Source: Dysgonamonadaceae bacterium (GTDB taxonomy: Bacteria; Bacteroidota; Bacteroidia; Bacteroidales; Azobacteroidaceae). From it: a stretch of 10,626 nt of DNA. The translations under genes were made by a program, and so were the position numbers. The stretch is taken from the NCBI GenBank assembly GCA_031276105.1, contig JAISNS010000036.1, forward strand, positions 1 through 10,626. The letters are read 5' to 3'. Positions 1-10,626 of this stretch are shown piece after piece. The first letter of the stretch is position 1. Each line of letters starts with the position of its first letter. The notes under the pieces were generated by a model that saw only the letters and a program-made list of their open reading frames with translations, searched no databases and was not told where the DNA came from.

Positions 1-3
1 TCG

Positions 4-34
4 CAAAGATACAAACAATTTTTAAGCCTACAAA
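4..34 (-). promoter_or_regulatory. Bacteroidetes-type promoter directed off the left edge
   Basis: Read on the minus strand, TTTG (34-31) is followed after exactly 19 nt by TATCTTTG (11-4), which matches the Bacteroidetes -33/-7 consensus TTTG-N19-TAnnTTTG and is followed by the common C. It overlaps the last codons and the stop of the leftward gene. It should therefore drive a separate leftward gene outside the window. The match is seen directly; promoter activity is inferred. Confidence 0.55.
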
Positions 35-675
35 GGATTTACAAATTCAGATTCAAAATTTTCTATTAATTCCGGATGCTTGTTTATATATTTATCCCTT
101 AGATAGACGCTCATAACCCGTATCACTACATAAAAATCTATTTTGCTTTTTTGTCCGGCAAATTCCATTTCTTCGGGATTGAAATAAACGTAGTTTTTTA
201 TGCAATTAAAAATATCTTTGTCGCTGCTTTCGGTCAAAACTTTAAACGAAGATTCTTCCAAGTCGTATGCCGTTTTTGGCGCCTGTTTTTCGATTTCCGA
301 AATAAAGAAATCTAAATTATCATCTATTATTTTCTGTGCACAGGTTTCTTTTAGGAGTTCGTAACCGGCTTCGCTGATTTTTCTCGGACTTTTTTTAGGT
401 AAAAAAACATCAATCATTGAGCTGTCAAATTTTGCAATCCAGCGCGAAACATCACAAAAAGAATTTTGTAAAGTAATAATATTTTTCAGGGCGGTTTTAA
501 TATCGTATCCGTGGGAGTTGCAAGGCATTTCGCTGATCTTTTTCTCCAATTCCGGTATCTTTTCCGTTCGCACGGAAATTTCGCCGGTCTTAAATATCTT
601 TTTTAGCATAAACCAAACGCCGCCTAAAACAACTGAAATGATTGAAATAATTATGTAAACCGTATTTAAGTCCAT
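28..675 (-). CDS. Single-pass membrane protein of unknown function
   Basis: This 215-aa protein is not assigned to a named family. Residues about 6-24 form one hydrophobic helix followed by the basic stretch KKIFK, which suggests an N-terminal anchor with the rest in the cytoplasm. A short coiled coil follows at about 36-50. The middle region (about 92-130, KISEAGYELLKE) resembles the small winged-helix-like part of hypothetical proteins I have seen in many bacteria, with the later AYDLEES segment fitting the same type. The C-terminal third is predicted helical. It is transcribed away from the capsid genes from its own promoter-like sequence (720-752). That arrangement fits an accessory (moron) gene expressed independently of virion assembly. 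Superinfection exclusion or defence is possible, but nothing in the sequence proves it. The ATG at 675 is the natural start because it opens directly into the membrane helix. Confidence 0.75.
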   Translation of the reverse strand: MDLNTVYIIISIISVVLGGVWFMLKKIFKTGEISVRTEKIPELEKKISEMPCNSHGYDIKTALKNIITLQNSFCDVSRWIAKFDSSMIDVFLPKKSPRKISEAGYELLKETCAQKIIDDNLDFFISEIEKQAPKTAYDLEESSFKVLTESSDKDIFNCIKNYVYFNPEEMEFAGQKSKIDFYVVIRVMSVYLRDKYINKHPELIENFESEFVNPL

Positions 676-719
676 TTTTTAATTGTATGTTTTATTTGCC
701 GGTACTGTTTTTGTTTCTG

Positions 720-752
720 CAAATGTAATTTGTTTTTTTTAAGCGGCAAGAA
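720..752 (-). promoter_or_regulatory. Promoter-like element for the leftward membrane-protein gene
   Basis: On the minus strand, TACATTTGC (727-719) fits TAnnTTTG plus the common C. TTCTTG (752-747) lies 19 nt upstream as an imperfect -33 box. Transcription would start near 713, giving a leader of about 40 nt. Motif and spacing are seen directly; activity is inferred. Confidence 0.5.
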
Positions 753-831
753 AAAATTACGACTAACCAATTTTTTTTGCTTATTTTCAAAAAAATATCA
801 GTCAAAACGACTAAAATTCAATCCAAATGCT

Positions 832-840
832 TATATTTGC
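832..840 (+). promoter_or_regulatory. Promoter-like -7 box for the rightward structural operon
   Basis: TATATTTGC matches the Bacteroidetes -7 consensus TAnnTTTG with its usual trailing C, about 64 nt before the ATG at 904. No TTTG is present at the expected -33 position (about 809-812). The promoter may therefore be weak or depend on a phage-encoded activator, as a late promoter could. No other good match was noticed further down the plus strand, so this may serve the whole head-tail operon. Confidence 0.45.
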
Positions 841-903
841 AGTGTCCTTTACGGAAATACTTCGCCCCAATGTGGGAATACCGATTAAAAACAAAAAAAT
901 CCA

Positions 904-1254
904 ATGAACAAGTACATTAAAGTAATAGAAAAAGACAAACGTCCGGTGATCGTTTTGGCTGCAAATAAGGCTTTCTACGCCTCTCGCGGCGCTAAAATCG
1001 AAGATGCGACACAAAAAGAAATTGAAGCCTTTTTCCCGGAAGAGGGTAAAGGCGGAAAATCTAAACTCTCTGGAGGGATATTCGATAGATTAAATGAAGA
1101 ATTTGAAGTTGTAAAAAAGGAACTGGAAGCTGAAAAGGCCGCTCATGCCGAAACCGTTGCATTGCTTAATAAGGCAAATACGGAGTTGGAAAAGGTAAGA
1201 GCCGGTTTTGACGAAGCGCAAAGGCAGATTGCAAAACTATCTAAAAATCAATAA
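904..1254 (+). CDS. Small coiled-coil phage protein preceding the scaffold
   Basis: This is a 116-aa protein with two parts. Residues 1-47 are a compact segment containing the stretch ASRGAKIEDAT and ending in FFPEE. After a Gly/Lys linker (48-58), residues about 60-114 are a highly charged heptad-rich helix expected to form a coiled coil. It is the first gene of the rightward operon and ends 3 bases before the scaffold-like gene, so the two are almost certainly co-expressed. Position and coiled coil suggest a head-assembly accessory protein, possibly a co-scaffold or a packaging-related protein. I cannot name a family. Start choice: the ATG at 904 follows an A-rich leader and the promoter-like box at 832. 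Confidence 0.7.
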   Translation: MNKYIKVIEKDKRPVIVLAANKAFYASRGAKIEDATQKEIEAFFPEEGKGGKSKLSGGIFDRLNEEFEVVKKELEAEKAAHAETVALLNKANTELEKVRAGFDEAQRQIAKLSKNQ

Positions 1255-1257
1255 AAT

Positions 1258-2151
1258 ATGAAATTAGGTGATTTTATACACGGTTTCGCGGTTAAAGCCG
1301 GGAAACAAAACGAACAGGCAATTATTGATATTTTGAGCCGTGCGGATTTGCAGAATGTCGATATTGAAGACTCGGTCGCCAACGCAATTGCTAACAGCTT
1401 GTTAACGGTTGATGCGGCGAAAAACAATGCGGTGGTTAAAAACCACTTTAACGCGCAGATTTTGAACGCTTTCGATGCAGAGATTTCAGAGGCGGTAGAT
1501 AAGTTGGAATTAGGGGATGATTTTAAGACGGAGTTAACCGGTATAAAAAGCACCTACGAAAAACAGCGGAAACTGGCCGAAAAAATCAAAGAAACGGTTG
1601 ATAGCCTCAAAGCCTCGCAAGGAAAGGGAGATGATAAAGCAATTGAGCGTTACACGAAGCAAATCAATGAATTGCAGACCAAATACGCAAAGTTGCAGGA
1701 AACTACCATCCCGAAAACAGAACTCGAAAAAGTGAAAAAGGAGAACGAAAACGCCGTGCGCGATTTTATGCTTCATTCCAAGATTTCGGGCTTGAAATTT
1801 GCTAATCAGGACGTTAATCACGATGATAACGTTGCGTTTGCTAATGTTATTCTGGGCAACCGGTTATCGAAAGCGAAAGCGGTTATCGTTAAAGATGGAA
1901 ACGACCTCAAATTGAAACAGGCAGAGGATCAGGCGTTGGATTATTTTGATGAGCAAAACAAGCCGGTATCGTTCGATGATTTCATGAACAAAGCGTTTGC
2001 CGACGCTAAAATTTTGGCAGTCAGCGGGCCTCAAAACCCGAATACTCCGCCTGTTCCTCCGGTTATTCCTCCGGGCGGCGGGCAACCACCGGTAAATGCC
2101 GCTCAATTCAATGCCGCTATTCAGGCTTCGTTGGGCGATTTATCCAATTAA
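1258..2151 (+). CDS. Probable capsid scaffolding protein
   Basis: This 297-aa protein has the architecture expected of a phage scaffold. An acidic helical N-terminal region (1-90) is followed by a long coiled coil (about 97-167, rich in E, K and Q). Residues about 168-255 form a compact region (MLHSKISGLKFANQDV... to KILAVSG). A proline/glycine-rich linker (about 258-278) then leads to a short C-terminal amphipathic helix (279-297). Scaffolds commonly bind the capsid protein through a C-terminal helix on a flexible tether, which this end resembles. The gene lies directly upstream of the probable major capsid gene with a 20-bp gap. No serine-protease signature of a fused maturation protease was recognised. 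The role is inferred from order and architecture; a minor structural protein is the alternative. Confidence 0.65.
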   Translation: MKLGDFIHGFAVKAGKQNEQAIIDILSRADLQNVDIEDSVANAIANSLLTVDAAKNNAVVKNHFNAQILNAFDAEISEAVDKLELGDDFKTELTGIKSTYEKQRKLAEKIKETVDSLKASQGKGDDKAIERYTKQINELQTKYAKLQETTIPKTELEKVKKENENAVRDFMLHSKISGLKFANQDVNHDDNVAFANVILGNRLSKAKAVIVKDGNDLKLKQAEDQALDYFDEQNKPVSFDDFMNKAFADAKILAVSGPQNPNTPPVPPVIPPGGGQPPVNAAQFNAAIQASLGDLSN

Positions 2152-2171
2152 CTTTATAAAATTATTCAATT

Positions 2172-3284
2172 ATGTTTCCAAATTTAGTGGGAATAGTTAA
2201 TTCCCTTTTACTTACCATTTCGGCGCTTGCAGGGCAAAACGATCCGCAGTACAAAATTACTCCGGTGGGTTTCCTGCAAATGCTTCTTGAAAATGCAACC
2301 ACGGCAACGGTGGCTAATGCGGATGATTTGCGCAAAGGCTTGGAACGGACGTTAACGGTGCGCTATATGCAGCGCGGCACGGATACGGATGTTGTGGATA
2401 CGGATGATTGCGAAACGAATGTTACTGCCGCCTGGAAACAGACGAACATCGGGGCGCCTATGTTTTCAAAGTTAGGCATTAAGATTGAGGATGACCTTTT
2501 GCGGCAACTTCAGGAATCGGCAACTTCTACGATAACGCTCGGCTCGCAGGGGGCGAATGTTTATTTAGCTCTATATCAAACGGTACTTACTCAATTGAAC
2601 GGATTGATACAAAAGATAGACAAAAACCTTTTGGCAGCACAGGCGGGCAATTGGGGGGTTAATATTGCATCCGGTTCTTCGGCGGCACGGGCGGTTAATT
2701 TTTCCAATACGCCAAACATTAGCGATGGGATTGTTAAATTGATTTCGGATTATCAGTTTAACGAAATGTCGGGTACTCCGCAAATCGTAGGGAACGGCAT
2801 TATTACCAACTATGATATTTTGCAACGGTTGAAAATCGGCGTGGATAATGGTGGTTTCGGCTCTAATCCGGTTAATGTTTATACGGATGTTAATACCGTT
2901 TCGGCTTGGGGAGCTAATCATTTCGGGGTATTTGTTCCGGGTTTAGTGGACTTTGTCGATTATCAAAGAAACATAGGGGCTTTTGCGGGCTTCAAAGGCG
3001 GATCGCTATTCTTTACGATGCCGGTACCGGTGCAGTTGGCTGGCGGCAGGCTGGTTAGTCTTGTTTTCGACTGTCAGTTAAAATACAACGATTGTCCGGA
3101 TGGTGATTCCGGTCGCGGATGGTTTTTGCTTATTAGCAAGAGATATGGTTTATGGAACGCACCGGCTGATATGTTTAAACAAACTATTCCGGCGGTAGCG
3201 GGAGATAATCCTGTTCCGGAAATTCCCGGCGACCGATTGGAGGGTTTCAATGGTTCGTTGCATTATTTGGCGACGGCGGTTTAA
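2172..3284 (+). CDS. Probable major capsid protein
   Basis: This 370-aa protein is the likely shell subunit and would be expected to adopt the HK97 fold, although I see no motif that proves it. Length, mixed alpha/beta composition and position immediately after the scaffold support the call. Residues 1-25 are hydrophobic and lead into a helical stretch (about 32-62). The body is rich in Gly, Asn and Val. No long charged N-terminal delta domain is present, in keeping with a separately encoded scaffold. Cysteines cluster in acidic loops (DTDDCE; DCQLKYNDC), which is uncommon in capsid proteins. The C-terminus ends SLHYLATAV. A large hairpin repeat begins just after the TAA TAA double stop and could protect the 3' end of this presumably abundant message. 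Confidence 0.7.
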   Translation: MFPNLVGIVNSLLLTISALAGQNDPQYKITPVGFLQMLLENATTATVANADDLRKGLERTLTVRYMQRGTDTDVVDTDDCETNVTAAWKQTNIGAPMFSKLGIKIEDDLLRQLQESATSTITLGSQGANVYLALYQTVLTQLNGLIQKIDKNLLAAQAGNWGVNIASGSSAARAVNFSNTPNISDGIVKLISDYQFNEMSGTPQIVGNGIITNYDILQRLKIGVDNGGFGSNPVNVYTDVNTVSAWGANHFGVFVPGLVDFVDYQRNIGAFAGFKGGSLFFTMPVPVQLAGGRLVSLVFDCQLKYNDCPDGDSGRGWFLLISKRYGLWNAPADMFKQTIPAVAGDNPVPEIPGDRLEGFNGSLHYLATAV

Positions 3285-3382
3285 TAAGTTAAAAACTAAA
3301 AACTAAAAACTAAAAGTTGCGCGAGGCGCGGACAGTTTTTAGTTTTTAACTTTTAGTTCTTAGTTCTTAGTTCTTAGTTTTC
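3285..3382. repeat. Hairpin repeat, copy 1 (AAAAACT-type arms)
   Basis: The whole 98-bp spacer is repeat. The left arm (3294-3318) carries reiterated AAAAACT units. The right arm (3348-3372) carries AGTTCTT units. The two pair at 23 of 25 positions around a 29-nt loop containing GCGCGAGGCGCGG (3319-3331). A 15-nt perfect alternative pairing also exists (3288-3302 with 3336-3350). The right-hand repeats run to within a few bases of the next ATG at 3383, so the repeat supplies that gene's entire leader. There is no terminal T-run, so this is not a standard intrinsic terminator. Confidence 0.85.
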
Positions 3383-3922
3383 ATGTTGGATTGTTTGACA
3401 GGTTATATCGGGTTAGCGAGCGTCGTGGGTACTGCCGAGAGCGGTTTGTATCTCGATGCCTTGCCCGGTATTAACCTGTTTAATGTATTGAAAATCGCGG
3501 ATAGCAGCCAAAAAAATCCGAATGGTGAATATTCGGTTGAAAAGGTTTTTTCGGATGTGCAGCAACGCACGATATTGAAGTTCAGAACGCTTTTTATCAC
3601 GGAGTTTAATCGTTGTTTCAAGTTTTACAAACGAAACGGTATTGATTGCCTCGTTTGTGAAAACAGGGAGTTACTGGCGGTTGCTTTATGGTATTTGATG
3701 GGCGCCGAAATGTCGGAAGAGTGTTTGCGAAGCGACCGGATTAACCGCTATACAACCGTTGATCGGCAAAAGATAAAGGAACAAAAAGAGGGTTTTCTGG
3801 ATGCTTTTTATACGGAAATTTCCGCCGCTATTGCCGGGATTGATTTGGAAGGTAGCGAGTGTTTTACCCATGATGCGCCCGAATGCGGGGGTATCATACA
3901 AGTGATTGAAACATGTCCGTAA
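3383..3922 (+). CDS. Probable head-tail connector (neck) protein, cysteine-rich
   Basis: This 179-aa, largely helical protein lies right after the capsid gene, the usual place for a head-completion or adaptor protein. Its pattern (start MLDCLTGYIGL, then SGLYLDALPGI, a Val-Gln-Gln-Arg helix, and CLVCEN followed by a WYLMG segment) resembles proteins I recall from Bacteroidetes phages at this location. That recollection is not verified. It has eight cysteines (residues 4, 78, 89, 92, 114, 160, 168, 178), including a CxxC at 89-92. The ATG at 3383 is kept because MLDCLTGYIGL fits the remembered N-terminus, even though the leader is repeat sequence. Its 3' end overlaps the next gene by 10 bases, implying coupled translation. 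Confidence 0.6.
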   Translation: MLDCLTGYIGLASVVGTAESGLYLDALPGINLFNVLKIADSSQKNPNGEYSVEKVFSDVQQRTILKFRTLFITEFNRCFKFYKRNGIDCLVCENRELLAVALWYLMGAEMSEECLRSDRINRYTTVDRQKIKEQKEGFLDAFYTEISAAIAGIDLEGSECFTHDAPECGGIIQVIETCP

Positions 3923-4500
3923 CGGTTAATTTATCGGGATTGGATGAAATCGGTCGAATGCTTAACAGTATAGATGTTGATTTGCTTTGCTACGATGTAG
4001 CCTATTCGTTAAAGGCCGAAATAAAGAATCGAATACACATAGAAGGCAAAGCAGCCGACGGCTCTAAGATTGGGACTTATTCCAAAGGATACATGAAGGT
4101 GCGAACGGGTATATATCCAAATACTTCATATGTGCCGGAATATAATGTATCCAAAAAGGGAAAGGTGTCTAAGAAACGGAATAAAACAGCAGGGGAACAA
4201 AAAGATGACGGAGTATTTACCAAGGTACCTCGAGCCGGACAGCCGAGACCGGTCTATAATCGTAAAAACGAAACGGATGTTATTCTTTCCCTTACAAGGC
4301 AGATGGAGAAAGATATGGATGCTACACTACCGATTAAAATTGAAGGCGGTTACGGGATTGGATTTAGCAATGATTTTAATTACGATAAATCGCAATGGAA
4401 CGATAAACGATACGGTAAAACGGTTTACGATTTAACGGATGAAGAAGAGCGAATAATGAATGAGATTGTCGATAAATACATAGAAGAAAAAATGCAATGA
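3913..4500 (+). CDS. Probable tail-completion / virion morphogenesis protein (HK97 gp10- or Mu gpG-like)
   Basis: This 195-aa basic protein begins with a short amphipathic segment (VNLSGLDEIGRML) and a helix ending in IKNRIHIEGKAADGSKIG. That arrangement is typical of the gp10-like and virion-morphogenesis families that join heads to tails. A Lys/Arg-rich central loop (about 60-115) is followed by a segment with a beta character (SLTRQMEKDMDATLPIKIEGGYGIGFSNDFNYD). In those families this part ends in a fold resembling a tail-tube subunit. The C-terminus is a charged helix. The gene overlaps its upstream neighbour by 10 bases and its downstream neighbour by an ATGA, so the three form one translational unit. 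Family assignment rests on pattern and position only. Confidence 0.6.
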   Translation: MSVTVNLSGLDEIGRMLNSIDVDLLCYDVAYSLKAEIKNRIHIEGKAADGSKIGTYSKGYMKVRTGIYPNTSYVPEYNVSKKGKVSKKRNKTAGEQKDDGVFTKVPRAGQPRPVYNRKNETDVILSLTRQMEKDMDATLPIKIEGGYGIGFSNDFNYDKSQWNDKRYGKTVYDLTDEEERIMNEIVDKYIEEKMQ

Positions 4501-5033
4501 ACGGGATAATTGATGACATAAACGCACAAATTGAAAACGCTATCAGGTGTTTGTTTGGCGATGAAATGCCTTTTCTGGGCTTTACGCTCGCCAAGCCGGT
4601 ACAGATAACGGACGATACAACGGACATGTCTATGCCTGCAATTATCGACAATAACGGGGAATGTCATTATGTATTTACAGATGACAGTTATGCAATAGGT
4701 TGGTATCATCGTTTGCTTTCGAGAAATTATTCTGCGAAACCCGGGTTTGGGGATAACAATCTGGATGTAAAAAACGATGAAATTCTTTTGGTTTGCTGGG
4801 GATTATCTAATGTTCTGCAAATGCAGGCCGAGGAGGTAGAGAGTAAGGTTATTGTTCCGTCGATTCCAGGCAATGCCTTGTTGGTATCTTCCAACTTCGA
4901 TGCTAAATCGGTATTGAGCGGCGAGTTCAGGAATATCAATTACTTAAACAAACCGGAAGAGTTTATTTTTTCGGTCAAATACAGAGTTCAAACGGCATTT
5001 AATCGTAAATGCAAGAATAAGTTAACGAGTTGA
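4497..5033 (+). CDS. Probable tail terminator or tail-completion protein
   Basis: This 178-aa protein is third in the head-tail joining block and directly precedes the probable tail-tube gene, where a tail terminator is usually encoded. The N-terminal helix (about 1-20) and a final strand (EFIFSVKYRVQTAFNR) are compatible with that fold and recall Bacteroidetes phage proteins at this place, but I cannot confirm the family. It starts in an ATGA overlap with the previous gene. The final residues (LTS) and the TGA stop are encoded inside the left arm of hairpin copy 2 (GTTAACGAGTTGACAAG). The original C-terminus may therefore have been replaced when the repeat arrived. Confidence 0.55.
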   Translation: MNGIIDDINAQIENAIRCLFGDEMPFLGFTLAKPVQITDDTTDMSMPAIIDNNGECHYVFTDDSYAIGWYHRLLSRNYSAKPGFGDNNLDVKNDEILLVCWGLSNVLQMQAEEVESKVIVPSIPGNALLVSSNFDAKSVLSGEFRNINYLNKPEEFIFSVKYRVQTAFNRKCKNKLTS

Positions 5034-5101
5034 CAAGTAAACAAGTTAACGAGAGCGCGAAGCGCGGCAATCCCAAAACTCGTTTACTTGTTTACTCGTT
5101 A
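5021..5101. repeat. Hairpin repeat, copy 2 (GTTAACGA-type arms)
   Basis: The left side consists of 8-bp units (GTTAACGA, GTTGACAA, GTAAACAA, GTTAACGA) and begins inside the upstream gene. The right arm holds complementary units. Positions 5032-5053 pair with 5079-5100 at 19 of 22 positions around a 25-nt loop containing GCGCGAAGCGCGG (5055-5067). The loop itself contains GCGAAGC, known as an exceptionally stable single-stranded DNA mini-hairpin. Positions 5044-5084 are identical to 5764-5804 in copy 3. The remainder of the spacer (5102-5142) is an A/T-rich leader for the next gene. Confidence 0.88.
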
Positions 5102-5142
5102 AGTAAAAAAATAATAATTAAAAATTTAATAATAAAAGAGTT

Positions 5143-5736
5143 ATGGCTATAGTTTATAAAAATTGTACAGAAGACGGAGTTTTTCCGGGATACGCATGTG
5201 ATCCTTGCGGTGAAACCGAGGGTGGGCGCGTTCGCGGGGCGGTTTATTTTCATAAAAGCCTCAAAAGCGCATTGACAAATGCAAATCTTTCTCTACTTAC
5301 GTGGTGGGATACTCAAATTGCCGCCGGAAAGGTAAAAATTATTCCAAGTACGCGCGGAACATACGACGGGGGAACAAAGAATACCGTTACGGGATTTGGG
5401 GACGATCAGGAAAAAATAACGGGCAAAACGTATGTGGCGGTTGTTAACGATCCGCGACATGCTGGCAATTTGGCTTTTTATCAGGCGCTCGAAAACAATT
5501 ACAAAGATTATATTTTTGGTTTTCGCACGGAAAAAGAATTGCGGGTAGCTAACGATGTAATGACCGGTCTTGAGGTTAAAGACCCGGTAGAAGAGGATGC
5601 TAATTCGGTTGTACTATGGCAAGCAAACGTTACATGGATTCAAAAAATACCGAATACGATGGTTTCAGTCCATATATTGACGGATGAAGTAAAGGAATTG
5701 TTCAGCAATTGTATTGACGAAGAGGAAGCCGATTAA
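5143..5736 (+). CDS. Probable tail tube protein
   Basis: This 197-aa protein is assigned mainly from position, after the head-tail joining genes and before the tail and fibre genes. Its mixed beta composition and a central region (GTYDGGTKNTVTGFGDDQE, then VAVVNDPRHAGN) recall Bacteroidetes phage proteins in this slot. Late segments such as VVLWQANVTWIQKI are strand-like. The N-terminus has a C-x10-C-x2-C cluster (residues 8, 19, 22) plus one cysteine near the C-terminus (190), which could bind metal or form disulfides. No sheath gene precedes it, so a contractile tail is not indicated. It is the only gene flanked on both sides by nearly identical hairpin repeats. Its A-rich leader suggests strong translation. 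A baseplate or other virion protein remains possible. Confidence 0.55.
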   Translation: MAIVYKNCTEDGVFPGYACDPCGETEGGRVRGAVYFHKSLKSALTNANLSLLTWWDTQIAAGKVKIIPSTRGTYDGGTKNTVTGFGDDQEKITGKTYVAVVNDPRHAGNLAFYQALENNYKDYIFGFRTEKELRVANDVMTGLEVKDPVEEDANSVVLWQANVTWIQKIPNTMVSVHILTDEVKELFSNCIDEEEAD

Positions 5737-5831
5737 ACAAGTAAACGAGTAAACAAGTAAACGAGTTAACGAGAGCGCGAAGCGCGGCAATCCCAAAACT
5801 CGTTAACTCGTTTACTTGTTTACTCGTTAAC
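5737..5831. repeat. Hairpin repeat, copy 3 (longest arms)
   Basis: Arms 5741-5773 and 5799-5831 pair at 32 of 33 positions around a 25-nt loop (5774-5798) identical to that of copy 2, with the core GCGCGAAGCGCGG at 5775-5787. Each arm holds four 8-bp units (GTAAACGA, GTAAACAA, GTAAACGA, GTTAACGA on the left, with complements on the right). Compared with copy 2, the right arm has one extra unit next to the loop. The preceding gene's TAA stop abuts the first unit, and the right arm ends 11 bases before the ATG at 5843. Confidence 0.92.
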
Positions 5832-5842
5832 TAAAAAAAAAC

Positions 5843-6187
5843 ATGGAAAAGTATCAGGGAGAAGATATAAGTTTTAACGTTAAGTTTCAGAAAGGGGAAA
5901 ATGAGAGTATTAACAGTTTTGCCGACCTTTCCGAAATAACGATCTATGCTTATACGGATGGATGCGATATTGTAAGGTTTAGTTATCCCTCCAAAGCGAA
6001 TTACGAAAGCCTTACACTTGTAAACAATACAACGCTTGCCGGAGTAATTTCGGCTTCCAAGACAAAAATAATGGCTCCGGGTTTTTTGCGCGTTGAAGTA
6101 CGGGCGAGAAAAAATAATGAAAATATGGTAGAAAAAAGAATTACCGGAATAGTAATAGTTAAAGACTTAATTAAAACAGAAATATAA
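5843..6187 (+). CDS. Small beta-rich phage tail or baseplate protein
   Basis: This 114-aa protein is predicted to be almost entirely beta strand (GEDISFNVKFQ; EITIYAYTD; LRVEVRARKN; ITGIVIVKDL). The pattern of an opening strand, then an ITIY-type strand, then an alternating LRVEV strand resembles the N-terminal domain of phage baseplate upper proteins (BppU-like), which carry receptor-binding fibres. That assignment is only suggestive. It starts right after hairpin copy 3 behind a run of nine A residues, and it ends in a one-base TAATG overlap with the multi-domain fibre gene. The two are thus co-translated and probably act in the same tail structure. Confidence 0.55.
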   Translation: MEKYQGEDISFNVKFQKGENESINSFADLSEITIYAYTDGCDIVRFSYPSKANYESLTLVNNTTLAGVISASKTKIMAPGFLRVEVRARKNNENMVEKRITGIVIVKDLIKTEI

Positions 6188-7392
6188 TGGCCGATTTTGA
6201 CTTAATAATTCAGTTTGGAAAAGATTATTCGGCGGGGTTAGCCGCTTTGCAAAACTCCGTTGATATTTACAACGTCACCCAAAAAGTCCCTTTGCAATCC
6301 GGCTATTACACCGCCGCCACCGCCCGGGCCGCCGTCCCCACTGCCATTCGCAAGAAAGGCTTGATTATCACTTATCGGACATCCGATGCAATCTGGAAAA
6401 CCGAACAGTTTTATAAGGGTGAAACTTCTGCATGGACAACCGCCGACAATTGGCGTTCCATGGACGGACTTGATATAATTAGCGTTTCCAGCATAGCGGA
6501 TTTGTACGAAAAACTGAACGACGCATCCTTGTGGCTGAACAAATACAATCTTTCCGAGAAGACAATAATAAGAACCTTTCGTTTCGTACAATGGATTTTC
6601 ACGCTTATTGTTGTAAAGAGTGATGCAATTACCCAATACTTGTTTGGCCCTACCATTCTCAATGAAGACGGTACATTTAACGATGCTACTTACTTTGAGA
6701 GTTACATAATCAAGCGTACAATTAGTAATTCCGGAACAGTTATTGTACCTTGGCATTACGTCGACAAACCGGATTTTGTTAACATCGACGCCTTCAAACC
6801 CCTCGCCTCCGGCTATTACACGCCCGATACCGCACACGCCGCCCTGCCTAATTCGATGAGAAAACAGGGAATTGTGATTACTTACCGGACAGCCGCAAGC
6901 GCGTGGGCAACAGAACGGTACGTTGGCACCTCTTGGCAACCCTTCGTGGCGGAAGGAGGCGGAGGCGGCGACGTTGACCTTTCCGAAATCGAAGACGACA
7001 TCGAGGTTTTACAAAAAACCTCCTTTAAATACCTTGCTTCCGATACCAATTTAAACATGATAACCGCCCTTGGCGCCTATTACATCGGCACGGCAGAAAT
7101 ATCCGGAGCGCAACTGACCGGCGGAAGTAAAGATTTTCTTTTTGTGGTCGGGAATAAGCTGCTTTCACCAACCGAAAAGGTGAACGACATAACGCAATAC
7201 CGGATAACGAACGGTGAAATAACAATGCGTAAGCATTATCCCGCATACGGAAACATTGGTAACATTACCCCCGCCAGCTGGGACGAATGGACGTCGCTTG
7301 GCGCTCAAACCACCCCGATTGCTACCATGACCGAATCGGCCTACGAAGCATTGGAAGAAATAGACGAAAATACATTGTATTTTTTAACATAA
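6187..7392 (+). CDS. Multi-domain tail fibre protein with duplicated SGYYT module and knob-like C-terminus
   Basis: This 401-aa protein has a recognisable modular layout. Two related modules, residues 34-91 and 204-253, share the pattern P-L-x-SGYYT-x-x-TA-x-AA-x-P-x-x-x-RK-x-G-x-x-ITYRT followed by a W-x-TE stretch. They flank an unrelated segment (about 92-200). A GGGGG hinge (257-261) and a short acidic helix lead to residues about 284-371. There the spacing of G-x-YYIG, a DFLFVVG strand, QYRITNG, R and W-x-x-W suggests a pyocin-knob-like fold. The end, MTESAYEALEEIDENTLYFLT, is a linker motif common in phage tail proteins. It is translationally coupled to the upstream gene. From about 6240 many codons end in C, unlike the genes to the left. 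Role: host-surface binding, inferred. Confidence 0.7.
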   Translation: MADFDLIIQFGKDYSAGLAALQNSVDIYNVTQKVPLQSGYYTAATARAAVPTAIRKKGLIITYRTSDAIWKTEQFYKGETSAWTTADNWRSMDGLDIISVSSIADLYEKLNDASLWLNKYNLSEKTIIRTFRFVQWIFTLIVVKSDAITQYLFGPTILNEDGTFNDATYFESYIIKRTISNSGTVIVPWHYVDKPDFVNIDAFKPLASGYYTPDTAHAALPNSMRKQGIVITYRTAASAWATERYVGTSWQPFVAEGGGGGDVDLSEIEDDIEVLQKTSFKYLASDTNLNMITALGAYYIGTAEISGAQLTGGSKDFLFVVGNKLLSPTEKVNDITQYRITNGEITMRKHYPAYGNIGNITPASWDEWTSLGAQTTPIATMTESAYEALEEIDENTLYFLT

Positions 7393-7396
7393 CGAG

Positions 7397-7603
7397 ATGA
7401 TATTCAAAGGAACGACACCGATACAGGCAATCAAACTCGGAATCGCCGATGTGCAACGAGTGATGTACAACGGCGCAAAGATATGGCCGGGCGATGACAC
7501 CGGCGACTCCATTTCCGTTAGCCCTTCATCAATAGTCATTCCGGCAAACGGAGACTCGCAAACCGTAACCGTTACGGCAACAGATAATTGGACAGTACTA
7601 TAA
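7397..7603 (+). CDS. 68-aa fibre linker protein ending in the first half of a BACON-like domain
   Basis: The gene starts 4 bases after the fibre gene stop. Residues 1-31 (KGTTPI...KLG...VMYNGAKIW) match a short module that in many phage proteins follows a 'TLYF' segment like the one just ended. After a Gly/Asp linker, residues about 38-68 (SISVSPSSIVIPANG, then SQTVTVTATDNWTV) are the opening strands of a BACON/Ig-like domain. The protein then stops at a TAATAA double stop. The conserved continuation of that domain (AxAxWLTVTPASG) is absent here but present at the start of the next gene, in another frame. This looks like a deliberately or evolutionarily split domain rather than a sequencing frameshift, because two stops and a separate leader intervene. 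Confidence 0.65.
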   Translation: MIFKGTTPIQAIKLGIADVQRVMYNGAKIWPGDDTGDSISVSPSSIVIPANGDSQTVTVTATDNWTVL

Positions 7604-7635
7604 TAAAAATATTAACAAATTAAAAAAACAAAATT

Positions 7636-8256
7636 ATGGCAAAAGCAGCATGGTCAACAGTAACTCCCGCAAGCGGAAGCGCGGGAACAACACCCGTACA
7701 AGTAGGCGGAAGCGTACACACCGGACGCGCCTCGCGTCCAACATCGCCCGTCTTTAAGATAGGAACGGCAGCATCCGCAACATTAACAGGAACACAGGAA
7801 GCGGCAGGAAACATTTTTCAGCTTGCGCAAAATTTAGCCGTTACGAAAGAAGGCGGTACCGCTTTGCCTTTTGAAGGAATATCCAACGCGCAAAAATTAA
7901 ATGTCGTGGTCGCCGGAACAGGATTTACGTTTAACGGATTGCAAATATCAATCGACGACGGCGCAACGTGGACTGCGAAATTAGCAAATAACATAAATTT
8001 TGAAGGAGACCCCGGCGTGACAGCTGCATATAAATTCAGAATACTAATCAGCGCAACGGCGAATCCGACAACAGCTACACGCTCCGGCACGATAACCATC
8101 ACGCCGACGCCTGGAGCCGCTCTGCCTGTCAGGACTATCACGCAAGCCGCCGGCGACGCAGCTGTTTCGATAAGTCCGACCTCAATCACCATCCCGGCAG
8201 ACGGAACCGCACAAACCGTTAACGTTACGGCAAATGCCGATTGGACGGTAGAATAA
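7636..8256 (+). CDS. BACON-like fibre protein with complementary half-domains at both ends
   Basis: This 206-aa beta-rich protein begins MAKAAWSTVTPASGSAG, the second half of a BACON-like domain (1 to about 50, including the HTGRASR strand). It has a central Ig-like domain (about 80-170) containing SIDDGATW, AYKFRI and RSGTITITPTPG...RTITQ. It ends (177-206) with a new first half (VSISPTSITIPADG...NVTANADWTVE). The C-terminal half matches that of the 68-aa neighbour at 18 of 30 positions. Residues about 81-170 are clearly paralogous to the next protein (SNxQKLN, DDGxTW, AYKFR). It thus carries both an acceptor-like and a donor-like end and could in principle assemble head to tail. The leader is A-rich. 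BACON domains are associated with carbohydrate or surface binding. Confidence 0.7.
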   Translation: MAKAAWSTVTPASGSAGTTPVQVGGSVHTGRASRPTSPVFKIGTAASATLTGTQEAAGNIFQLAQNLAVTKEGGTALPFEGISNAQKLNVVVAGTGFTFNGLQISIDDGATWTAKLANNINFEGDPGVTAAYKFRILISATANPTTATRSGTITITPTPGAALPVRTITQAAGDAAVSISPTSITIPADGTAQTVNVTANADWTVE

Positions 8257-8262
8257 GCAATT

Positions 8263-8808
8263 ATGGCGAAAGCAGCATGGTTAACGGTTAAAGACGAATC
8301 AGGAAACAACGTAACAGGCGGAACAGCCGGAACAAAAACCCTGAAAATAGGCTCAAGCACAGCCCATACGGGGAGGCTTCAACGCACATCGCCTTTTTCG
8401 CTCAAACCGACGGCAGGCGGAACACAAGTTAACAAGACAATCCCACAATTATCGTCGGGAGACATCCTCTTAATCGCCGACCCAAGTACCGTTCCGGGCG
8501 TCGGCATGAATCTATTGGTGCAGGGAGTATCCAACACACAAAAATTAAATGCGACAATAAGCGGCGACGGATTCACGATCGGTTTTTTAGAAATATCGAC
8601 AGACGACGGCTCGACATGGGATACAATCACAAACAATGCAAACATCCCAAACGATCCGGGCGCGGCAGCAGCATATAAATTCCGAGTGGCGGTTTCCGTA
8701 ACGCCGAATACGTCGCCAACAAGCCGTTCGGCAACGCTAACCGTTACCCCTAAACCCGGTACCGCGGTAAAAAAAACAATTACGCAAACCGGCATAATCC
8801 ACAGTTGA
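8263..8808 (+). CDS. BACON-like fibre protein with only the acceptor-like N-terminal half
   Basis: This 181-aa paralogue of the preceding protein starts with the same MAKAAW and continues with LTVKDESG and an AHTGR strand. It shares the central Ig-like domain (SNTQKLN, STDDGSTW, AYKFRV, then KKTITQ). It stops at GIIHS, just where the paralogue begins its C-terminal half-domain, so no donor-like end is present. It begins six bases after the previous TAA and in the same reading frame, so readthrough of one codon would fuse the two proteins. Re-initiation after termination is the simpler explanation. Likely role: the last member or tip of a fibre series, inferred from the missing half. Codon bias is like its neighbours to the left and right. 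Confidence 0.7.
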   Translation: MAKAAWLTVKDESGNNVTGGTAGTKTLKIGSSTAHTGRLQRTSPFSLKPTAGGTQVNKTIPQLSSGDILLIADPSTVPGVGMNLLVQGVSNTQKLNATISGDGFTIGFLEISTDDGSTWDTITNNANIPNDPGAAAAYKFRVAVSVTPNTSPTSRSATLTVTPKPGTAVKKTITQTGIIHS

Positions 8809-8823
8809 CGGCAATAACGTGTA

Positions 8824-8917
8824 GTGACAAGTGACAAGTGACAAGTTAACGAGTAAACAAGTTAACGAGTGACAAGTGACAAGTGACAAGTGACAAGTGA
8901 CAAGTGACAAGTGACAA
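8824..8917. repeat. Heptamer array (GTGACAA) with embedded octamers
   Basis: Three GTGACAA units (8824-8844) are followed by GTTAACGA, GTAAACAA and GTTAACGA (8845-8868), then seven more GTGACAA units (8869-8917). The segment GTAAACAAGTTAACGAG (8853-8869) is shared exactly with the left arm of hairpin copy 2 (5037-5053). There is no GC-rich core and no complementary right arm. Each unit contains TGA or TAA, and 7- and 8-bp periods rotate through all frames, so the array closes every plus-strand frame. It ends 15 bases before the ATG at 8933. Copy number could vary by slippage. Confidence 0.9.
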
Positions 8918-8932
8918 ATAAATAACAAAAAT

Positions 8933-10626
8933 ATGCAAGTAAAAGTAACACAGTTAGACGAAAAAAATATCAACATCGAACGGATATTTAACGACGGGCG
9001 AATCGTTTCAAATGATTATCCTGCGCAGTTTTACTCCGTCTCCGACCGCGGAAATGTAGTTATCATGACCGATCATCGCCCGTTTTCATCAGTCGTCGTA
9101 GCCCCTGCCGACTTGGAAATAAACGGCGAACCGGCGCCGGCCTCCGTTCAGGAAGCCGTGATGCTGCTAAATTCTTTCATCGGAAATTTTAATCCGGCAG
9201 TAGGGGCTGCCTCACCAACCCTTCTCGCCTTTGAAGCAGACAATGATTACAAAGAGGGCGATACGATTAAGCACAACGGCGCGATCTATGTGGCGAAGGC
9301 CGATTTCAAATCCGGCGCCGATTTTGACCCGGACGATTGGGATCAGTTGAGCGTAAACCCTTTCGAGTTGTCGGAAGTAGTGAACGCAGCCGTCGAAGAA
9401 ATTAACGCCGACATTGAAGAAATTAACGCCGACATCGAAGAAATTAACTCAACAATTAGTGATTTTGAACCCACCGCCAACAAAACAACCGCCATTCGAG
9501 AAGCCAATGAAGCGAACGACATAAACTTTCCCACCGAGCTTGCCGCCCGCAAGGAACTCGACACGAAAGCCGACAAAATCACAACCCCGCACATCGATTG
9601 GAATCCCGACGCTTTCGATATTCCGGCCGGCCGGACGCTGCATTTCAACACAGCAACCGCACCGGCTATTGCCGGAGACGACATGCCGATTTTGGCCTGT
9701 TATTCGACCGTGAATGGCGACGCCGATTCGATGTTCGGATTTTTCAGCAACGATGCCGGAGCAACCACGCAATTCGGTTTGTTTCATTTGAACGATGACA
9801 TGGATGCCTTCGTGGCCGACACGCTCTTATACGACGGCGCGCAATGGTTGAACGGCAGCGATTACGTACTTCCCACCGGTATCGCGGGCAATTTCAGCGC
9901 CTGCGTTGGAAACAACGTAACAGTGACCGGCTTCGATTTAACAACCGACATAACCGTTTCGGACGTGCCGCCGAAAAATTTAATCGACGTCGAAAACGAA
10001 GTATTGCAACTCGTAAAAAGCAAAGCAAATATTTTTGTGCGCCTTGCGCAGGGCATCACAATCGGCAATAACATTCAGGGAATGCACATCATCGCAAAGC
10101 CCCCGTTTGCCTACTTCACGGATTGGACTTTGACCGCCGCCGACGGCGCAACAATGGTCAGAACGGATAACAGCTTCGTTTACACGAAAGCAAACGGAAC
10201 AGTTGTTACGCTTGTCGATAACGGAAATATCCTGATAAACGATTATGTGATTGAAGAGCCGTTCCTGATAACCGAAATGGAAGGCAGTTTCACGAACGTG
10301 AACCTGTTTTACCGCTATTTCGACATAAAAGATTTAGACCAGCGTATCGGGCTTGTTTCGGCGTTGCAAACCGTCGACAAATCAAGCATTGTCAATGCGA
10401 TAAACTCTTTGAAGGGTTACGTCGACGGCATTCTGGAAAGCAGCGAAATAGCAGGCTCGCCATACGCGAATTATGCAGCCTTCATGGCAGGCGCAGGCGC
10501 AACGATTACGCCTTCCAAATATGCGTATGTAACATTTACCGATACGGATACGTGGCCGACCGGCGGCAACTGGAATAAGATTGTGGCGGGCGAAACCTGG
10601 AGGCTGGATTGTTCGGACACGGAATG
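8933..10626 (+). CDS. Long tail fibre protein, 3' end beyond the window
   Basis: The frame from the ATG at 8933 is open for 564 codons to the right edge. Residues 1 to about 90 form a head domain (MQVKVTQLDEKNINIERIF... to a SVQEAVMLLNSFIGNF helix) that I associate with tail-associated Bacteroidetes phage proteins. Residues about 104-140 (YKEGDTIKHNGAIYVA, then DFDPDDWDQLS) fit a small carbohydrate-binding-like module of the CBM5/12 type. Residues 155-175 are three exact-register heptads (EEINADI, EEINADI, EEINSTI), followed by more coil. The rest is beta-rich, Gly/Asp/Asn-rich fibre sequence with a second helix (VSALQTVDKSSIVNAINSL) typical of phage fibres. The start is well defined because the repeat array upstream closes all frames and the leader is A-rich. 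Likely role: receptor binding. Confidence 0.8.
   Translation, partial: MQVKVTQLDEKNINIERIFNDGRIVSNDYPAQFYSVSDRGNVVIMTDHRPFSSVVVAPADLEINGEPAPASVQEAVMLLNSFIGNFNPAVGAASPTLLAFEADNDYKEGDTIKHNGAIYVAKADFKSGADFDPDDWDQLSVNPFELSEVVNAAVEEINADIEEINADIEEINSTISDFEPTANKTTAIREANEANDINFPTELAARKELDTKADKITTPHIDWNPDAFDIPAGRTLHFNTATAPAIAGDDMPILACYSTVNGDADSMFGFFSNDAGATTQFGLFHLNDDMDAFVADTLLYDGAQWLNGSDYVLPTGIAGNFSACVGNNVTVTGFDLTTDITVSDVPPKNLIDVENEVLQLVKSKANIFVRLAQGITIGNNIQGMHIIAKPPFAYFTDWTLTAADGATMVRTDNSFVYTKANGTVVTLVDNGNILINDYVIEEPFLITEMEGSFTNVNLFYRYFDIKDLDQRIGLVSALQTVDKSSIVNAINSLKGYVDGILESSEIAGSPYANYAAFMAGAGATITPSKYAYVTFTDTDTWPTGGNWNKIVAGETWRLDCSDTE
9395..9457 (+). repeat. 21-bp coding tandem repeat encoding coiled-coil heptads
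   Basis: Three consecutive 21-bp units (9395-9415, 9416-9436, 9437-9457) encode EEINADI, EEINADI and EEINSTI. The first two differ at one synonymous base. One unit equals one coiled-coil heptad, so gain or loss of a unit would lengthen or shorten the stalk without breaking frame or register. A trimeric fibre stalk is likely, by inference. Confidence 0.85.

Follow-up and report, generated by a model that had tools for sequence, protein, structure and literature searches.

Complementary halves of a BACON-type domain at the boundaries of three consecutive genes in a putative Bacteroidales phage locus

The BACON domain (PF13004, PF19190) is an immunoglobulin-like (Ig-like) domain that is formed by one chain in the BoGH5A structure 3zmr. 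In gut phages it is known from the tandem-repeat tail proteins of crAss-like phages (PMC6949934) and from BACON/Ig-like adhesins (PMC13370021); the available portions of these papers place it within single open reading frames (ORFs), where it is repeated, stands alone or is accompanied by another Ig-like domain, and the BACON accounts in these portions do not mention splitting across genes. In chaperone-usher pili and in type V pili (FimA/Mfa1, Porphyromonas gingivalis), an incomplete Ig-like domain is combined with the terminal segment of a neighbour, and the available part of PMC5954841 describes the C-terminal beta-strand of FimA as the proposed donor and the donor of Mfa1 as unsettled. Separately encoded fibre proteins also dock on the tail at the tail fibre hubs of CrAss001, for which the excerpted text of PMC10172136 describes an interlocking C-terminal THB segment and tail fibres that are flexible and less well resolved; the main text of that paper does not use the word BACON. 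Here we describe three consecutive genes in a 10,626-nucleotide stretch of DNA from a Dysgonamonadaceae bacterium (contig JAISNS010000036.1, positions 1 to 10,626; hereafter, the window). They share with the gut phage proteins the domain, overlapping phage groups and a position near tail or structural genes, and like the CrAss001 fibre proteins they are separately encoded. However, whereas the BACON domain lies in one chain in 3zmr and in 30 bacterial domains analysed below, the gene boundary here falls inside the domain.

The three genes and their half-domains are listed below, where D denotes the donor (first) half and A the acceptor (second) half.

7397..7603, forward strand: D-only protein of 68 amino acids (aa), a short N-terminal part followed by a C-terminal donor half-domain
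7508..7600, forward strand: donor half 1 (D1), first half of BACON, ending ...DNWTVL and then the stop
7604..7635, forward strand: gap between the D1 and A2 genes, a gene boundary inside the domain
7636..8256, forward strand: A+D middle protein, 206 aa
7636..7803, forward strand: acceptor half A2, second half of BACON, starting MAKAAW, with profile matches to BACON_2 and 3zmr_A
7804..8154, forward strand: predicted complete BACON/Ig-like middle domain of the 206-aa protein
8155..8253, forward strand: donor half 2 (D2), ending NADWTVE and then the stop
8254..8262, forward strand: TAA stop and 6 bases separating the 206 and 181 genes, which are in the same frame
8263..8808, forward strand: A-only protein, 181 aa, acceptor half A3 and a BACON-like domain, with no donor tail
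8263..8433, forward strand: acceptor half A3 of the 181-aa protein, from the own-genome match and the read-through model

By sequence comparison, the donor corresponds to the first approximately 33 residues of a BACON (Ig-like) domain and the acceptor to the last approximately 55. The first-pass annotation had read a shared first-half sequence at the ends of the 68- and 206-aa proteins and the second half at the starts of the 206- and 181-aa proteins, and both readings hold. In the first pair, 18 of the last 31 residues are identical (18/30 by the earlier count), and in a search of the own genome the 68-aa donor matched residues 173-205 of the 206-aa protein with 63% identity (E 1.8e-5), while the 181-aa protein matched its residues 1-171 with 48% identity (E 4.9e-32). 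Residues 3-56 of the 206-aa protein align to positions 40-93 of the 94-position Pfam BACON_2 profile at 18.5 bits, under the 25-bit cut-off, and because of these profile positions its N-terminus represents the second half of BACON_2 only. Two matches to Pfam BACON (PF13004) reach the 25-bit cut-off, one in the 206-aa protein (25 bits, residues 135-171) and one in the 181-aa protein (29 bits, residues 133-175), and both sit past the acceptor half. Pfam lists no BACON match for the 68-aa protein at E ≤ 1, and neither terminal half (206-aa N-terminus, 68-aa protein) makes up a complete one-chain BACON domain. The middle domain of the 206-aa protein resembles BACON by model and the A half does so by profile: positions 4-54 of the A+D family profile match residues 42-92 of 3zmr_A, which is the closest solved homologue of this half, with E values from 0.0005 to 0.006. 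Other matches in this search had E ≥ 0.037, many of them plainly unrelated, and further searches for solved homologues gave a best E no better than 0.07.

The division into halves is conserved. Among approximately 5.8 billion proteins searched, the 206-aa protein has 43 matches at E ≤ 0.001, its own included, and the match spans 98-100% of its length in 42 of them. A Trp is found among the first 8 residues in 38/43 (the starts being M-A-K in 23, M-A-Y in 8 and M-S-F in 6), and the last Trp lies 4 (32 proteins) or 7 (6 proteins) residues from the end, again 38/43 together. For a locus-level comparison, loci found by scanning viral and genome contigs with sub-alignments (L041-L162) were added to phage records. 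Full-length A+D ORFs number 125 (95 unique), of which 119 measure 198-225 aa, and de-duplication left 88 A+D representatives in 74, 52 and 33 clusters at 95, 80 and 70% identity, respectively. The loci come from a family-guided search, and phages without the family are uncounted; L040 (minus strand) is excluded from the counts, L160 represents a continuous protein of bacterial origin, and the ORFs of L063 (279 aa) and L126 (580 aa) probably have over-long starts.

The position of the cut is retained in proteins with as little as approximately 30% identity and at neighbouring genes in many loci, and the donor Trp stands 4 residues from the end in 60/74 loci (profile-selected D1 proteins) and in 74/88. 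Such a register is not what decay would be expected to keep. Plain gene fission or domain decay, leaving pieces that fold alone and tails without a partner, is consistent with the fact that half-domains can persist as remnants and with the confident AlphaFold model of the lone 206-aa protein, but given the constancy of the cut we regard it as very unlikely. Chance or decay was likewise judged unlikely from the conservation of the cut, the neighbours and the Trp position.

Relatives of approximately 200 aa with the A+D arrangement occur in many phages, crAss-like phages included. A single viral scan with P0036 as query yielded no relative. Of 393 genomes of the order searched at E 1e-14, two contained the full-length family, the own genome and G336, and the family is therefore rare in bacterial assemblies. 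Contig records with the full family carry the names uncultured Bacteroidales and Tannerella (L157, L159), from which the virus is likely to infect Bacteroidales bacteria. In phage records MT774387, MT774393 and OR575929, members of the family carry the labels lipocalin-like, cellulase or glycosyl hydrolase, which were probably transferred from BACON-bearing enzymes such as BoGH5A.

The missing halves are carried by the neighbouring genes. Upstream proteins are 63-136 aa in 68/74 loci and, by eye, end ...SNTxWxIx, and downstream proteins often start MAxTIPWxxGxGNIxLTYTGQGNGTV (by eye). Using profiles of the A+D ends, the adjacent ORF scored at least 5 bits upstream in 51/87 loci and downstream in 63/86, compared with 13/3534 control ORFs for each half, some of which are displaced family members. 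In a cross-validation, donor and acceptor profiles were trained on half of the 70% clusters, with adjacent ORFs taken as training neighbours by their A+D-end profile score (3 bits for D, 5 bits for A), and were then applied to every ORF of 50 aa or more in the loci of the remaining clusters, which held 42 ORFs per locus on average; the counts omit sides with less than 250 bases of flank. The top donor ORF was the immediate upstream gene in 70/87 loci, the top acceptor ORF was the immediate downstream gene in 71/86, and both were adjacent in 62/85. The converse search with the A-only profile gave 33 loci, 26 of them on contigs already in the set. Inspection of eight A-only loci, which comprised one known and seven new contigs (two apparently identical), showed an A+D gene immediately upstream in all seven new contigs and also a D-only gene in six.

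The series is also seen, by reading, in the named phage records cr111_1 and cr127_1 (Crassvirales) and csAssE-Sib, the third gene of cr127_1 being doubtful in that its acceptor-like stretch is at the C-terminal end. In csAssE-Sib the series lies at 48.9-54.6 kb, with a further A+D copy at 5 kb; an annotated retron-type reverse transcriptase (L192 1-1317) lies upstream of this series, separated from the D-only gene by three genes. The order donor only, acceptor plus donor, acceptor only, first noticed in the window, is therefore present at many related loci, and the check on relatives named in the first-pass annotation came out in favour of its reading, the tails and the adjacency of the genes being conserved.

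We next consider how the halves fit each other. In bacterial BACON proteins of related genomes, the donor profile runs straight into the acceptor profile. With 44 unique D matches and 51 unique A matches, 30 unique bacterial domains have both halves, and in 24 of these the full-model ends are -1 residue apart, that is, they overlap by one residue. The distance from the donor Trp to the acceptor Trp is 7 residues in 19 of the 25 bacterial domains with the pattern (five are without it). Across D1+A2, the spacing is 8 (7 plus the start Met) in 59/66 pairs, and because of this Trp spacing the cut falls in one loop, where the D1+A2 pieces neither lose nor repeat residues. Across D2+A3 it is 9-10 in 44/59 pairs. 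These results, together with the neighbours described above, show that the gene ends are halves, that they tile a continuous domain, and that the order D-only, A+D, A-only recurs in many phages.

The difference in spacing also bears on whether the middle protein could polymerize with itself. In L154 two A+D genes stand in succession, therefore the middle piece can repeat, as had been suggested from the window. In a homopolymer, D2 of one 206-aa protein would complete A2 of the next copy, and the fibre would be capped by the 68- and 181-aa proteins. The tandem genes are in accordance with that, and the halves of the window look interchangeable because of the similarity of D1 to D2 and of the 181-aa protein to the 206-aa protein given above. 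However, D1 and D2, and A3 and A2, differ by eye in many relatives, and the spacing of 8 in one junction versus 9-10 in the other suggests two junction types rather than an open-ended repeat; we consider a homopolymer quite unlikely.

The first-pass annotation had offered fission of an ancestral continuous fibre as its alternative, and fission of a known continuous phage fibre is not documented by the present data. One capped search for a fused D-A homologue, using residues 130-300 of the two-gene read-through and reaching word-sharing proteins of 0.55-1.75 times the query length, gave 18 matches of 216-227 aa, aligned over 39-47% of the query, none of which spanned the junction; continuous BACON domains are present in bacterial proteins of related genomes.

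Read-through or frameshift fusions are made for some Ig-like phage tail extensions, and the three genes could in this manner give one polyprotein through stop read-through or frameshifting. The 206 and 181 genes of the window share a frame that is interrupted by a single TAA, and 35/74 D1-A2 junctions are in frame, above a third. On the other hand, the 68 and 206 genes of the window lie in different frames, only 13/72 D2-A3 junctions are in frame (the gap is -1 in 24/72), and 15 of the 31 listed in-frame upstream junctions contain at least two in-frame stops. Judged from frames, gaps and stops, a polyprotein appears extremely improbable as the explanation of the series. Considered junction by junction, a read-through or frameshift product is not general for D2-A3 and is less clear for D1-A2.

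Structure models give a further indication. When the 206- and 181-aa proteins were modelled as one chain with AlphaFold, D2 and A3 formed one Ig-like domain (residues 175-275), and, on indirect grounds, the lone 206-aa protein, modelled at a mean predicted local distance difference test (pLDDT) score of 92, does not appear to close on itself. An incomplete Ig-like domain with a terminal donor segment in its neighbour is found here in the sequence halves and their order, and is predicted by the tethered model. In Foldseek searches, the lone 206 model had general Ig-like matches in the PDB, and pilus chaperones matched the read-through model as an Ig-like fold only. No phage fibre structure was among the 50 matches listed for each of the read-through and 206 middle-domain models, which is not evidence of absence.

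From these results we think it rather probable that the subunits are joined head to tail, in the linear pairing D1-A2 and D2-A3, through complementation of split domains. The products of the three genes would be parts of a phage tail appendage, with a BACON-type Ig-like domain divided at each gene boundary, and the C-terminal donor of one protein would be completed by the N-terminal acceptor of the next; on the model, D2 of the 206-aa protein and A3 of the 181-aa protein would fold as one Ig-like domain. Complementation of this kind would dispense with covalent links and set the order in which the parts assemble. The earlier proposal of strand complementation between subunits stands as regards the complementary gene-end halves, the conserved order and the composite domain in the tethered model, while interchain pairing in the virion, and its combination there, goes beyond these observations.

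Several points weigh against the linear pairing. At D2-A3 the read-through model has moderate confidence (pLDDT blocks of 68-89, predicted template modelling score 0.55), it tethers D2 beside A3, and its alignment included six further read-through rows. The lone 206 model gives D2 a pLDDT of 94-97, which could also mean closure in cis. In 23 of the 85 loci, one or both adjacent neighbours failed the cross-validated test; among these exceptions, the missing half was elsewhere in the locus in L070, L108, L141, L054, L086, L125, L075 and L094, adjacent but lower-scoring in L081 and L082, and not seen in the locus in, for example, L123 and L067. The 5-kb A+D copy of csAssE-Sib (L034) lies among non-structural genes, and a subfamily of A+D proteins has a basic, helix-like tail (by eye) past the donor end, such that the donor is not the extreme C-terminus (P0038, P0039, P0046, P0047, P0051, P0052, P0056 and P0058; L034 4989-5645; L119 75-740). 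Placement in a tail appendage is a prediction from the genes. Finally, the covariation of the segments leans in part to other pairs. Partial correlations of segment distances over 51 loci (partial Mantel) were 0.355 for D1-A3 and 0.341 for A2-D2, above 0.252 for D2-A3 and 0.135 for D1-A2, and lean to closure in cis. The share of high mutual-information pairs was 0.026 for A2-D2, which lie in one gene, compared with 0.0101 for D2-A3 and 0.0092 for D1-A2 (D1-D2, 0.0088; D1-A3, 0.0079; A2-A3, 0.0058), and the mean of the ten best mutual-information values was 7.9 for A2-D2, 6.4 for D1-A2, 4.0 for D2-A3 and 3.3 for D1-A3. With approximately 33 effective sequences, the mutual information is mixed and not decisive.

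The arrangement to which these correlations point is a circular permutation, in which the 206-aa protein closes its own domain (D2 on A2) and the 68- and 181-aa proteins pair through D1 and A3, skipping or embracing it. D1-A3 and A2-D2 are the top donor-acceptor pairs by partial correlation, and A2-D2 has the largest share of high mutual information among the donor-acceptor blocks. The D and A profiles abut in continuous bacterial BACON domains, and therefore D2 and A2 would fit each other; the confidence of the lone 206 model and the csAssE-Sib A+D gene that has no adjacent D-only or A-only gene are also in accordance with closure in cis. Against it, A2 and D2 belong to one gene and would be expected to be coupled in any case, and closure is awkward because A and D stay at the extreme ends even around several Ig-like stretches. 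In the lone model, the A2 strands are 3-4 residues long and the strand at 203-206 is missing, compared with A3 strands of 4, 9, 9 and 7 residues in the read-through model. In addition, one and the same viral model can be superposed on the lone 206 model and on the read-through model (approximately 3 Å, 204-207 columns, the aligned part of the read-through being unspecified), though A3 would use D2 in the latter. Taking both sides together, closure in cis seems unlikely to us.

For the head-to-tail assembly, the roles of anchor, connector and tip are inferred because of the fusions of the donor to Tail_P2_I, the extra regions of A-only proteins, and the extended or repeated middle proteins. The donor forms the C-terminus of a Tail_P2_I (PF09684) baseplate protein in L074 (E 6e-21) and L129 (E 1e-20), and these proteins also match tail PHROGs; L040 resembles them by eye. 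The link to tail or baseplate comes through the L074 and L129 fusions, the neighbours in the window matching weakly. The 68-aa protein would accordingly be the anchor, since D ends a baseplate protein in some relatives. Short D1 N-termini in other loci have ISVSVxRxGG-like repeats before the donor half (for example, L050 4749-4967, L057 2842-3081 and L059 4738-4977), which are perhaps a small beta-repeat anchor. The 206-aa protein would be the connector; in relatives, middle proteins reach 534, 580 or 746 aa with extra Ig-like stretches, A still being first and D last. The 181-aa protein would be the cap. A-only proteins are 78-132 aa in 54/72, and some relatives carry extra regions: BspA-type leucine-rich repeats (LRR) in L052, Big_2 and a below-cut-off LRR match in L079, and ALK_LTK glycine-rich regions in L103 and L045, while in the A-only proteins of L128 and L146 Pfam found no LRR, Big_2 or glycine-rich part.

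More broadly, and tentatively, we propose a tail appendage of Bacteroidales phages whose separately encoded parts click together via split Ig-like domains. D1-A2 and D2-A3 would be keyed connectors that fix order and length, a baseplate anchor would be joined to interchangeable tips, and modules would be added, repeated and swapped gene by gene. If this is true, a phage appendage is assembled non-covalently from gene-encoded half-domains in gut phages including crAss-like phages, and many small hypothetical proteins beside 'lipocalin-like' or 'cellulase' genes are parts of one structure. It would also provide a reading rule (D at an end, A at a start) for finding further parts, and natural split-domain connector pairs as a biochemical tool.

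The first-pass annotation had likened the series loosely to pilus assembly. The incomplete Ig-like domain and the terminal donor support the likeness, which nevertheless stays loose: the donor here is approximately 33 residues, two to three strands or approximately 40% of the domain, and the loci are those of phages. No chaperone, usher, secretion or protease part was seen in the window, where no specific search for one was made, and Pfam gave no pilin family match for ten window proteins. The split BACON of these phage loci is predicted to work in the manner of donor-strand complementation, the donor making up almost half of the domain. A gene-split BACON domain is not described in the titles and abstract openings of the open-access papers listed, nor in the available portions of PMC13370021, PMC6949934, PMC10172136, PMC5954841 and PMC10136315. 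BACON repeats and adhesins of gut phages and the donor-strand exchange of pili are already known; judged from this literature, the division of BACON between genes appears to be new.

The series is flanked in the window by two genes.

6187..7392, forward strand: upstream neighbour of 401 aa, possibly a tail fibre protein (weak matches)
8933..10624, forward strand: downstream neighbour of 564 aa, running off the window, possibly a tail fibre protein (weak PHROG matches)

The 401-aa protein matches Pfam Phage_tail_C at E 0.001 (18.8 bits, under the cut-off of 23.7) and, in PHROGs, phrog_14959 (unknown function; E 8e-13) and phrog_6578 (tail fiber; E 0.005). The 564-aa protein has weak tail-fibre PHROG matches (best E 0.004), and PHROGs gave no useful name for the 68-, 206- and 181-aa proteins. 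Between the 181-aa gene and the next gene, positions 8823-8917 hold approximately 13 tandem copies of the 7-base AGTGACA, with GTTAACGAG variants, and short repeats similar to this array are found at 5730-5773 and 5797-5832. Within the 564-aa gene, a 21-base tandem repeat of 2.7 copies (9393-9448) encodes EEINADI repeats.
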